Translations under genes and position numbers: made by a program | Shown: piece by piece, positions 867-4,478 of the stretch | Position numbering within the stretch: position 1 is the stretch's first letter | Layout: every line of letters begins with the position of its first letter | The notes under the pieces: generated by a model | The model's input: the letters and a program-made list of their open reading frames with translations, nothing else | What the model was told of the DNA's origin: nothing | The model's database searches: none | Source of the DNA: Candidatus Poribacteria bacterium | GTDB lineage: Bacteria; Poribacteria; DTPJ01; WJIO01 | NCBI GenBank assembly: GCA_014730235.1 | Contig: WJIO01000169.1 | Location: 1-8,146 of the forward strand | DNA: 8,146 bases | Direction: 5' to 3'

Positions 867-2192
867 CTAATATTCAGGCCAGTTTTCCAGGGATTCGATT
901 CGCATCTTGTAATTCATCCACTCTTTAGCCCATGCAACTTCATTGGCTGTGGGGCTGTCAGGCGGCGTTAATTCCTCAGCTTTTTTAATATGGAAAAAGG
1001 CCCTTCTGTAGGCCCAGGGGAGTCCTGACGTGGATGTTATGTTCGCATAATATCTGGCCATGCCCAGATGGCCTTCCGGAGTAGTCTTTGCGGTAACAGA
1101 TTCTCGATATAACAGCGAGCCAAAATGCTTCATACCCATATTATAATAGAGATTACCCAGATCAACGTAGGCCAGGGCTATCTTCTCCCGGGCGTATGCA
1201 GCGGTGTCCGAGTATGAATATGCAAAGATAACATCCTGCCATGTTTTAAAAGCTTTTTTATAATTTTCCGGTAGAAAGTCATAGGTCTGTTTCTTTTTAA
1301 TATCAGGATATTTGTTGACGATGCGTCTGGTCTGTGCATAGGCTAGTTCGTAGCTATCTCCCCGCTTACCTGCGGGCCAATGAACGTCCAGATGAAACAT
1401 CTCCAGCTTTGCTAACTGAGGGTACCTGTCAAATATCTCAATTAACTCTATATAGGCTTTTTTTTCATCTGAAAATACCCTGGAAGGCAGCTTTTTTCTG
1501 GCAATAGCCCAGTAAGATTCACCAATTTTCCACATGGCATCATCGGCAAGTTCGCTCTTGGGCCACCTGTCCAATACAACCTGGAATTCTTCTATCGCCC
1601 TTTTGTTATCATTAAAAACCGTAAAAAATATATTTGCTATATCATATTGTGCATTATCTTTTATGTTTGATCCAGAATCGCCATCCCTTATTATTCTTAT
1701 GTTTTCCTCTATATCACTTACGGCGTTAATGCGTTCCTGAGCATCTAATGTTACTTCTTTATTGAAACGGGGATATTTATCTATTATTTTTTCATAAGCT
1801 TCTATGGCTTTATGGTTTTTATTCATGGCAAAATAGGAATCCCCAATTCCCAGCATAGCCCAATCAGCGGAGTCACCATTTGGGAATTGTTTAATTATTT
1901 CATTATAAACCTCAATTGCCAGATCATATTGCCCCTGGTAGTAATGACCATCAGCTATTTTCAATTTTGCATTGTCTGCATTATTACTTTCAGGATATTT
2001 GGCCAGGAATTCCTGAAGTTGAGCACTGGCTTCATTATACAAATCAGCGTCCTGCAATCTATTTGCTTCGGCAAATATCATTTCGGCTTCTTGTTGAGGC
2101 GTCATGTTAACTCTAGGGCCAGCACAAGCGGTTATTAATGTTATTAATATTATTAAAGCAAGGAATGGAAGAAACTTCAAGCCGTTTGTCAT
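867..2192 (-). CDS. TPR-repeat outer-membrane-type lipoprotein
   Basis: A 441-residue secreted lipoprotein. Residues 1-22 are a lipoprotein signal peptide: a short polar start with Lys6, a long hydrophobic run, then LITAC, with lipidated Cys23. Ala at +2 would not retain it in the inner membrane by the E. coli Lol rule. The mature part is rich in TPR-like helical hairpins: about 37-68, 74-105, 111-142, 180-212 and 217-258, each with the A..Y..ii..yP pattern seen in BamD/YbgF-type proteins (for example ADGHYYQGQYDLAIEVYNEI, IGDSYFAMNKNHKAIEAYEK). The C-terminal 180 residues are also helix-like but less regular. Such proteins act as periplasmic protein-binding scaffolds, and BamD is a known member of this architecture. 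At 441 residues it is much longer than BamD (about 245), so I do not call it BamD. The ATG at 2192 has an AGAGGTG ribosome site, and a promoter candidate lies upstream. The adenylation gene follows it. Its partner is unknown. Confidence 0.85.
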   Translation of the reverse strand: MTNGLKFLPFLALIILITLITACAGPRVNMTPQQEAEMIFAEANRLQDADLYNEASAQLQEFLAKYPESNNADNAKLKIADGHYYQGQYDLAIEVYNEIIKQFPNGDSADWAMLGIGDSYFAMNKNHKAIEAYEKIIDKYPRFNKEVTLDAQERINAVSDIEENIRIIRDGDSGSNIKDNAQYDIANIFFTVFNDNKRAIEEFQVVLDRWPKSELADDAMWKIGESYWAIARKKLPSRVFSDEKKAYIELIEIFDRYPQLAKLEMFHLDVHWPAGKRGDSYELAYAQTRRIVNKYPDIKKKQTYDFLPENYKKAFKTWQDVIFAYSYSDTAAYAREKIALAYVDLGNLYYNMGMKHFGSLLYRESVTAKTTPEGHLGMARYYANITSTSGLPWAYRRAFFHIKKAEELTPPDSPTANEVAWAKEWMNYKMRIESLENWPEY

Positions 2193-2244: not shown

Positions 2245-2273
2245 AAAATAACATAATGTTGAAAGATCGTCAA
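2245..2273 (-). promoter_or_regulatory. Candidate sigma-70-type promoter of the lipoprotein operon
   Basis: On the minus strand TTGACG (2268-2273, 5 of 6 matches to the -35 consensus) is followed after exactly 17 bases by TATTTT (2245-2250, 4 of 6 matches to the -10). Transcription would begin near 2238, giving a leader of about 45 nt before the ATG at 2192. The -35 lies only seven bases from the direct repeat that bounds the inserted element at 2290-2518, so any upstream activator site would now be inside or beyond the element. Call based on spacing and consensus only. Confidence 0.5.
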
Positions 2274-2280
2274 GTTATGA

Positions 2281-2289
2281 ATTTTATTT
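2281..2289. repeat. Left 9-bp direct repeat (probable target-site duplication)
   Basis: ATTTTATTT here is repeated identically at 2519-2527, directly outside the terminal inverted repeats of the element at 2290-2518. This position and identity are what a transposition event leaves behind. The sequence is simple A/T, so chance is not excluded, but the exact abutment to both ends makes it convincing. Confidence 0.65.
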
Positions 2290-2318
2290 CCAAGCATAAA
2301 TTTTATGTCCGTGAAAAC

Positions 2319-2465
2319 TTTGGCTTTTTTGGCTTGAGTGTGGTAAAGATAAGAAACTTTTTTATGCTGTCATTCCTGCTTCAAGCTTTTTGGAAAAGCT
2401 TGAAGCAGGAATGACAAGATTAGAGGATTTTCAATTATAACCCCACTAAACCCATAAGAACCAAA
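2319..2465 (+). repeat. Dispersed hairpin repeat, copy 1
   Basis: A 147-bp unit found again, inverted, at 4312-4478. The central 102 bp (2341-2442) differ from the second copy at only about four positions plus one 20-bp length difference. The unit is nearly symmetrical: the 72 bases at 2319-2390 pair with the 72 at 2394-2465 at 53 positions by direct complement, with the inner 22 perfect. The tips resemble TTTGGTTCTT on both sides. The core GTCATTCCTGC...GCAGGAATGAC is of the kind found as dispersed palindromic repeats in many bacterial genomes. Confidence 0.8.
2369..2415. repeat. Perfect hairpin, 22-bp arms with 3-base loop
   Basis: Left arm 2369-2390 (GTCATTCCTGCTTCAAGC then TTTT), loop TGG, right arm 2394-2415, all 22 pairs perfect. 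In RNA it would form a very stable stem on either strand. It lies upstream of both flanking genes, so it is not obviously a terminator for either; it is better read as the core of the mobile repeat. Confidence 0.85.
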
Positions 2466-2518
2466 CTTTTTTTACTCCGTTCTTCACAATAACACAGGGA
2501 TGTAAAATTTATGCTTGG

Positions 2519-2527
2519 ATTTTATTT
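2519..2527. repeat. Right 9-bp direct repeat (probable target-site duplication)
   Basis: ATTTTATTT, identical to 2281-2289 and directly outside the right terminal inverted repeat. Together they bracket the 229-bp element. Confidence 0.65.
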
Positions 2528-2685: not shown

Positions 2686-3366
2686 ATGGAAAATTTACAA
2701 GAAAATCCCATGATACAGATGTTCGGTGTTTCCATGCAATACAAACGGGATGTGGAAGTGCTGCATAATATTAATATGGATGTGGAAAAGGGTGAGTTTG
2801 TATTCCTAGTTGGGCCAAGCGGCGCGGGAAAGAGTACAGTATTGAAATTACTGTATCGTGGTTTAGTTCCCAGTTCGGGAAGTATTGTGGTAGCAGGATA
2901 TAATCTATCAAAGATCAGAAATTCAAAGCTTCCACATTTTCGCAGAAGGCTTGGTGTAGTTTTCCAGGATTTTAAACTCCTGCCCCATAAAACTGTGGAA
3001 CAAAATGTGGCTTTTTCCATGCGTGTAACCGGCGCAAGGCGTTCTCAGATAAAGAAAAACGTTGAGCGCTGTCTCAACTGGACGGGGTTAAAACATCGGA
3101 AAAATGCTTTACCAGAGGATATATCCGGCGGTGAACAGCAGAGAACATCAATAGCCCGGGCAATAGTTAATGATCCTACCCTGATTTTAGCCGACGAACC
3201 CACAGGTAATTTAGATCCCAGATTATCCCTGGAGATAATGCATCTTTTTGAGAGGCTTAACACTCGCGGAACAACAGTTTTGGTGGCTACTCATGATATA
3301 AACCTGGTGGAGCAAATGGAAAAAAGAGTCATAAGAATAGAAAAAGGAAAAATACTGGAAGAATAA
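2686..3366 (+). CDS. ftsE: FtsE, ATP-binding subunit of the FtsEX cell-division complex
   Basis: A 226-residue ABC ATPase. With FtsX it forms a septal inner-membrane complex that uses ATP hydrolysis to switch periplasmic peptidoglycan hydrolases on rather than to transport a substrate. All ABC motifs are present: Walker A GPSGAGKST at 43-51, Q-loop Gln94, signature ISGGEQQR at 146-153 (Ile for the usual Leu), Walker B LILADEP at 166-172 with catalytic Glu171, D-loop NLD at 175-177 and H-loop His203. FtsE assignment rests on the family's typical opening (IQMFGVSMQY...L..IN..V..GEFVFLVG), the length, and the adjoining ftsX; LolD/MacB-type ATPases are the near alternatives. Start: the ATG at 2686 has only a weak AAAG before it. 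The ATG at 2710 would give MIQMF, the usual FtsE beginning, and may be the real start. The stop codon abuts the ftsX ATG, so the two are co-translated. Confidence 0.92.
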   Translation: MENLQENPMIQMFGVSMQYKRDVEVLHNINMDVEKGEFVFLVGPSGAGKSTVLKLLYRGLVPSSGSIVVAGYNLSKIRNSKLPHFRRRLGVVFQDFKLLPHKTVEQNVAFSMRVTGARRSQIKKNVERCLNWTGLKHRKNALPEDISGGEQQRTSIARAIVNDPTLILADEPTGNLDPRLSLEIMHLFERLNTRGTTVLVATHDINLVEQMEKRVIRIEKGKILEE

Positions 3367-4206
3367 ATGGCATATATCTGGAGTGAAACGTTTTCTAATA
3401 TAAGACACAGCGGTTTAATTGGTATATTAAGCGTAATAGTTATTGCATTAACTGCAATGGTCGTTAGTGTTCTACTTATGGTTGCAAATTATATACATGC
3501 GGAACTGAATATAGTAAAACAATCACCGCTTATCGTTGCCTTTCTTCAAGAGGGGTTGGACGATGATACCCGTCAGGACATTGGTGAAAAGATAAAAGCT
3601 TTACCCCAGGTTTACTCAACCCTGTATGTGTCCAAAAAAGATGCTCTTGAAAAGACCAGGGAAATGTTTTCTGACCAGGAGGAAATACTTGAAGGTCTCG
3701 AGGATTTCAATCCTCTGCCAGAATCATATGAAATTGAATTAAAGGCTGAATATATAGGTAGCGAAAGGATATTAGTCTCTAACCTGAAAGCTATACCGGG
3801 AATTGAAGATATACAGTATGCTCAGGAAACCTCCCGATTTGTCAGGAACATTGAGTTAGTAACCTTATTCATTGGAATAATACTGGGCCTTGCTTCTGTA
3901 GTTATTATATGCTTTTCTATTATTGTTACCACCTATATTCGCCGGGATGAGATAGTTATAATGCGCCTTGTAGGTGCTACCGGATTATTCATAAGAATAC
4001 CCCTGCTGTTACAGGGAATTGTCCAGGGGTTACTGGGAAGCGGGATCGGAATGGCCTGCCTTTACGGTATCCTGTATCTTCTGGCCCCAAGATTTGGACA
4101 TATAAATTTCTTACCGCCTATATATATAGCTGCTGTTGTAATTGCGGGTGGTTTGATTGGTTTTATTGGTGGAGCCTTACCCCTTCGGCGATTTATAAAG
4201 GCGTAG
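3367..4206 (+). CDS. ftsX: FtsX, membrane subunit of the FtsEX cell-division complex
   Basis: A 279-residue inner-membrane protein. It couples FtsE ATP hydrolysis to a periplasmic hydrolase or its activator through a large loop after the first membrane helix. Topology seen: cytoplasmic start (ETFSNIRHSG), TM1 about 17-42, periplasmic domain about 43-163, TM2 about 164-190, TM3 about 211-239, TM4 about 251-274, short cytoplasmic tail. FtsX hallmarks are NPLPESYEIEL at 115-125 in the periplasmic domain and EIVIMRLVGAT at 195-205 in the cytoplasmic loop that contacts FtsE. The length is normal for non-proteobacterial FtsX, which lack the long N-terminal tail of E. coli. The ATG follows the ftsE TAA with no spacer, with GGAAG inside the ftsE end as ribosome site. 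In many bacteria an EnvC-type activator gene or a peptidase gene follows; here a repeat and a convergent gene follow instead. Confidence 0.93.
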   Translation: MAYIWSETFSNIRHSGLIGILSVIVIALTAMVVSVLLMVANYIHAELNIVKQSPLIVAFLQEGLDDDTRQDIGEKIKALPQVYSTLYVSKKDALEKTREMFSDQEEILEGLEDFNPLPESYEIELKAEYIGSERILVSNLKAIPGIEDIQYAQETSRFVRNIELVTLFIGIILGLASVVIICFSIIVTTYIRRDEIVIMRLVGATGLFIRIPLLLQGIVQGLLGSGIGMACLYGILYLLAPRFGHINFLPPIYIAAVVIAGGLIGFIGGALPLRRFIKA

Positions 4207-4311: not shown

Positions 4312-4478
4312 TTTGGTTTTTCCGGATTTAGCGTGGTTATAATTGAAAATCCTCTCATCTTGTCATTCCTGCGAAACTCTTATTCCTTTTTGCTCAAGCT
4401 TTTTCAAAAAGCTTGAAGCAGGAATGACAGCATAAAGAAGTTTGTTATCTTTACCATGCCAAACCTGGAAGAACCAAA
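4312..4478 (-). repeat. Dispersed hairpin repeat, copy 2, inverted relative to copy 1
   Basis: A 167-bp unit. Read on the minus strand it matches 2319-2465: over the core (4335-4456) only about four substitutions plus a 20-bp length gain. Its tips form an inverted repeat with each other: TTTGGTTTTTCC at 4312 and, from the other strand at 4478, TTTGGTTCTTCC; 17 of 22 positions match. The outer 21-bp terminal repeats and the 9-bp direct repeat that frame copy 1 are not recognisable here, so this copy either lost them or moved as the smaller unit. It lies between two converging genes. Confidence 0.8.
4362..4428. repeat. Interrupted hairpin of copy 2, possible bidirectional terminator
   Basis: Outer stem GTCATTCCTGC (4362-4372) pairs with GCAGGAATGAC (4418-4428). 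Inner stem CAAGCTTTTT (4395-4404) pairs with AAAAAGCTTG (4406-4415) around a single C. Between the two stems on the left side lies a 21-base stretch (4373-4393) that replaces one T of copy 1 and would bulge out. Its location downstream of both ftsX and the kinase makes a two-way termination role plausible, though the T-run lies inside the stem. Confidence 0.6.

Follow-up and report, generated by a model that had tools for sequence, protein, structure and literature searches.

The 229-bp block at positions 2290-2518 of the window, the 8,146-nt stretch of DNA analysed here, is a genuine MITE, ordinary in kind, and its target specificity is unusually clear. Very probably, it belongs to a transposase-less multi-copy family which is moved in trans by UPF0236-type transposases, is targeted to promoters and forms a composite with an ISL3-like MITE. 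The value added to the initial annotation is the nested make-up of the block and a sharp target rule common to a known transposase group. The annotation had described one compact MITE; the identity as a MITE stood, but the 229 bp consist of two nested elements, which had been overlooked.

The outer MITE is complete, short and non-coding, with the B arm on the left and the A arm on the right. It is abutted by the perfectly matching 9-bp target-site duplication (TSD) ATTTTATTT at 2281-2289 and 2519-2527, and its 21-bp terminal inverted repeats (TIRs), CCAAGCATAAATTTTATGTCC at 2290-2310 (plus strand) and CCAAGCATAAATTTTACATCC at 2498-2518 (minus strand), match at 19 of 21 positions. Direct reading and a script showed that the block, repeats and 9-mers had been annotated exactly to the base. 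The perfect hairpin reported inside the block (TGTCATTCCTGC..., 2368-2416) is also present, and was identified by script to consist of two 23-bp arms (2368-2390 and 2394-2416) with a 3-nt loop, located in the centre of the inner ISL3-like MITE. Folding predicted that a single long hairpin is possible over the entire 229-bp element (-90.7 kcal/mol, z = -11.5). The outer MITE is flanked by a gene for a TPR/YfiO-like lipoprotein (867-2192, minus strand; Pfam TPR_6 and YfiO) and by ftsE-ftsX (2686-4206). A Pfam search with the proteins of the whole window found no transposase, in agreement with the initial annotation.

The nested ISL3-like MITE (2322-2462, 141 bp) has the ends GGCTTTTTTGG and CATAAGAACC and belongs to blocks repeated in the genome with the consensus end GGYTCTTCCGGGTT. 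A script identified its 8-bp duplication as AAAACTTT at 2314-2321 and AAACTTTT at 2463-2470, with the 7 bp AAACTTT in common and one A lost on the right side. ISL3 elements are characterized by 8-bp duplications and GG ends of the GGYTCTTCCGG type, and the inner element has both the 8-bp duplication and GG...CC ends. In the retrieved sequence, the GGYTCTTCCGGGTT-ended family was found alone at 40 places, with a modal length of 141 bp, and the 8-bp duplications of these standalone copies match at 7-8 of 8 positions in 28 of 40 cases, compared to 26 of 1560 cross-pairs. One standalone copy (161 bp), a relative of the MITE core, is located in the window at 4315-4475, between ftsX and a histidine kinase gene; its duplication is unrecognisable (3/8). 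For the inner element, a complete partner ISL3 IS was not recovered in the genome, which contains ISL3-type transposase fragments as truncated genes only, with GGTTCATCCGG near one of them.

Within the outer elements, the site of the inner element is recurrent and bordered by variants of AAACTTT; since the element recurs at this same site, the simplest history would be a single nesting event, after which the composite spread. The ISL3-like MITE would thus have inserted into an ancestral outer element, with later amplification of both as a single unit. An outer element lacking the ISL3-like insert was identified at L159:658-822 (C46), which contains a GTCATTGCGAGGAACGGAGTGACAAAGCAAT...ATTGCTTCGCTTTACTCGCAATGA hairpin instead. 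This element may represent the ancestral core, the remnant of which would be the A arm.

The genome (5.53 Mb in 451 contigs) was searched for further copies, with the ends of the outer MITE being retrieved piecewise and then paired into elements. The 16-base end, with at most two mismatches, occurs 134 + 135 times (~269), compared to 2 + 2 times (4) for a reversed control pattern, and the family comprises roughly a hundred copies at unrelated sites. In 40 of 65 complete elements longer than 100 bp, the flanking 9-mers agree at 8-9 positions, a level of agreement reached by 6 of 4160 pairs when unrelated flanks were cross-paired. The two arms of every outer element are distinguished as A (...CATCCCTGTGTTATTGCGAAGAACGG...) and B (...TGTCCGTGAAAACTTTGG...), and the elements with good duplications are 163-333 bp long, very short derivatives excepted; many copies are decayed or cut. 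Two further full-length copies (C64 and C349) are 96% identical across the 229 bp, each with its own 9-mer, and many additional ones show 79-85% identity. The genome search proposed in the initial annotation thus yielded many copies with other 9-mers duplicated at their edges, and the case considered there, that no second copy with the same ends exists, is excluded. Recent mobility had been deduced from the near-identical ends; recent mobility is supported, but the similarity of the TIRs is a weaker basis for it than the C64 and C349 copies, which are 96% identical at other sites with other 9-mers.

The family was not found in 57 other genomes of the phylum, where just two single one-mismatch matches occur, and the long end pattern gave 0 matches in viral contigs. 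Among the genomes of a named collection, which may lack the window's own genome, single unpaired matches to the 21-base end pattern were found in an Odoribacter MAG and a Ca. Fermentibacteria MAG; we estimate that these matches, in unrelated MAGs, are close to chance expectation. The nearest relatives compared belong to the same order, and their alignment to the locus is weak, located in ftsE, with none outside coding sequence. The genome also contains MITE-ended solo palindromes of some 23 bp (L075:1501-1523, L079:1494-1523, L108:740-762 and L211:2704-2726). Among such palindromes of 23-30 bp, like CCAAGCATAAAATTTATGCCTGG, the 9-bp duplication is present at L075 and L079. The short palindromes were probably left as scars when a deletion joined the CATAAAWTTTATG copies of both ends.

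On the basis of predicted promoters, the outer family appears to target a site 16 bp upstream of the -35 box, a feature on which the initial annotation was silent and which was revealed here by offset counts. TTGACA, with one mismatch allowed, was scored by its offset outward from 175 element ends. Such a -35-like box starts at offset 16 for 40 of these ends, compared to a mean of 1.9 at offsets outside 15-17 (binomial p about 3e-40, with both ends of one element counted separately), and TATAAT peaks at offset 39, corresponding to a 17-bp spacer from the -35 box. The safer figure is the count per element: among the 40 complete elements whose duplications match well, 26 show a predicted promoter at offset 15-17, while other offset triplets gave 0-8. 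Among these 26 elements, the promoter is on the A-arm side 15 times and on the B-arm side 11 times, and an open frame follows the predicted promoter in 24; promoters on both sides were found for none of the elements in a 46-element table with looser criteria. Roughly one in three complete elements lacks a recognisable promoter. In the window, the predicted -35 box TTGACG (2268-2273, minus strand) starts 16 bp from the left end of the element, and the predicted -10 box TATTTT (2245-2250, minus strand) follows after a 17-bp spacer and ends 53 bp ahead of the start codon of the lipoprotein gene. This predicted promoter, TTGACG-N17-TATTTT, would serve the TPR/YfiO-like lipoprotein gene on the minus strand.

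For ISLre2/TnGBS and some elements of the ISKra4 group, it was reported that insertion occurs 15-17 bp upstream of the -35 box with a peak at 16, and that both orientations are used when the two inverted repeats (IRs) are nearly identical (Guerillot et al. 2014; PMC3942029). The 16-bp rule is therefore already known from autonomous relatives; for a MITE, no earlier report was found in the open-access literature, in which a search for ISKra4 or ISLre2 combined with MITE gave nothing relevant and a search for a repeat motif gave nothing. At sigma-70-type promoters, the outer MITE would preferentially land 16 bp ahead of the -35 box, with the A or the B arm pointing to the promoter, and guidance to this fixed site might be provided by the promoter DNA sequence or by bound RNA polymerase. 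An insertion near -51 would spare both promoter and gene, so that many copies could accumulate.

A different reason for the retention of the copies might be that the element regulates the adjoining promoter, either with the A+T-rich end serving as an upstream element or with the hairpin serving as an insulator. This would be in line with the fixed spacing to the -35 box, the A+T-rich TIR block just upstream and the strong hairpin. However, the fixed spacing is already accounted for by targeting, and lengths of 163-340 bp, the use of either arm (15 A, 11 B) and the many decayed or cut copies argue against regulation, which we consider unlikely. There is likewise a slight chance that, with one non-coding module placed at about -51 of dozens of promoters, the A+T-rich end or the hairpin has been co-opted as a shared regulatory input.

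The nearness to promoters might also reflect the survival of harmless intergenic insertions upstream of promoters instead of targeting, as an intergenic bias is expected of any surviving insertion. Survival would result in a broad distribution, whereas the observed signal is confined to a single base offset with neighbours near background. In addition, the offset-16 peak is missing for the ISL3-like elements of this genome, while 6 of 8 related UPF0236 ISs from other members of the phylum are also located at offset 16. Survival instead of targeting is thus very improbable.

Returning to transposition in trans, we infer that UPF0236 transposases are the movers of the MITE. The CCAAGCATAAAWTTTA ends would be recognised by UPF0236-type transposases (ISKra4/ISLre2-like, Mutator-related) encoded elsewhere in the genome, which would act in trans on the MITE ends and generate the 9-bp duplication by a 9-bp stagger. 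The initial annotation had expected a parent IS elsewhere in the genome, and elements with the same end motif, a 9-bp TSD and a transposase were indeed identified; an intact IS with ends identical to those of the MITE was not recovered in the draft genome, the C45, C60 and C162 elements being broken. The CCAAGCATAAA end motif, by which the partner ISs match the MITE, is common to the UPF0236 ISs or remnants C354, C117, C45, C60 and C162. The IS at C354 is complete, 1509 bp long, with 25-bp perfect TIRs starting CCAAGCATAAA, a 9-bp TSD (CCGATTTGT), as for the MITE, and a frame of 447 codons, the product of which matches Pfam UPF0236 (PF06782) with E = 9.4e-26. Against curated family cut-offs, this transposase scores 152.9 bits compared to 205 for ISKra4, and 144.5 compared to 200 for ISLre2. 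Since both scores are below the family cut-offs, the C354 IS is filed as a relative only, its sequence pointing to a relationship to ISKra4 and ISLre2 and to membership in neither.

The IS copies at C354 and C117 show no promoter at offset 16, and the C354 IS may therefore not be the driver of the MITE. The end of the C162 IS fits the offset-16 rule. C162 represents the N-terminal half of a UPF0236 element and begins CCAAGCATAAATTTCTTGTCCGGAT; this transposase end is linked to the MITE, because this type of end also opens members of the MITE family whose 9-bp TSDs are good (L064, L083 and L123). C45 is a C-terminal UPF0236 remnant with the end CCAAGCATAAAATTTACATCCGC, and the ends of the C45 and C60 remnants closely match the MITE. 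The MITE ends begin 5'-CC, while the strand of the conserved terminal cytosine of the IRs is unstated in the main text of PMC3942029. In the truncated UPF0236 ISs at C45 (L068/L219) and C162 (L255), the interrupting sequence starts identically, with CTGGAATGAACCCCTTGCAACGGACACAG, and by eye reads like an IS3-type element. In other genomes of the phylum, UPF0236 ISs (L241, L245, L252, L257, L258 and L260) combine GGGTGTGTAAAG ends with 9-bp duplications, and are located 16 bp upstream of predicted -35 boxes.

Two other IS types were considered as parents. For an IS4/IS5-type parent, ten DDE_Tnp_1 loci were identified in the genome, and matching ends are present beside none of them. The MITE might also be derived from the IS1182-type IS of the genome, copies of which often follow CCAAGCATAAAWTTTA, and four IS1182-type junctions lie directly after MITE-end sequence. 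However, the constant IS1182 end GATACTGTTGGCGAATT is missing from the MITE, the junction point in the MITE end varies (after ...TTTAT, ...TTTAC or ...AAATT), and the IS1182 copy L217 sits in unrelated DNA. An IS1182 parent is thus largely refuted and scarcely credible; since its own end is constant while the junction points differ, this IS inserts into MITE ends instead. The GATACTGTTGGCGAATT ends were found inside MITE-end palindromes at 4 of 5 junction sites (L157/L230 C451, L062 C18, L116 C392 and L127/L232 C439), which suggests that the IS1182-type IS prefers such palindromes as targets. Finally, the block might be regarded as a REP- or BIME-like static palindrome with a 9-bp repeat by chance, and the strong hairpin and the 23-bp solo palindromes with the same ends might speak for this idea; it is refuted, however, by 40 independent 9-bp duplications compared to 6 of 4160 cross-pairings.

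Mutator-like targeting upstream of promoters has so far been inferred from autonomous ISs and ICEs. With dozens of independent non-autonomous insertions in one genome, a footprint of this targeting is obtained at one-base resolution, and the MITE insertions suggest that targeting needs the ends of the element alone in cis. They also flag where, in an uncultured lineage, sigma-70 promoters are likely to lie, and the effect of insertions at a fixed position on transcription becomes testable.

Compared to known systems, the inner element resembles the ISL3 family in its 8-bp duplication and GGYTCTTCCGG-type ends, with ISL3 transposase fragments present in the genome, but is non-coding and about 120-160 bp long. 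The outer MITE is similar to the ISKra4 group (p-MULT 4, Mutator-like; PMC3942029), with a UPF0236-type transposase in the same-ended IS, a 9-bp duplication, nearly identical IRs and insertion 16 bp upstream of the -35 box with either end facing it. In contrast to this group, the MITE carries no transposase gene, and the same-ended IS is below the ISKra4 cut-off of NCBIfam; its motif CCAAGCATAAA also differs from the GGGTGTGTAAAG ends of the other UPF0236 ISs of the phylum. With ISLre2/TnGBS (p-MULT 3; PMC3942029, PMC8024623), the MITE shares the target rule with a peak at 16 bp and, for ISLre2 members, the 9-bp duplications. However, most p-MULT 3 elements use one orientation while the MITE uses both, and the transposase is below the ISLre2 cut-off. 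Like the Correia elements and MITEAba12 (reviewed in PMC10969869), the MITE is short, non-coding and present in many copies with inverted repeats and a target duplication. While those elements are discussed for their internal promoters, the MITE described here is located upstream of an existing promoter, at a fixed distance.
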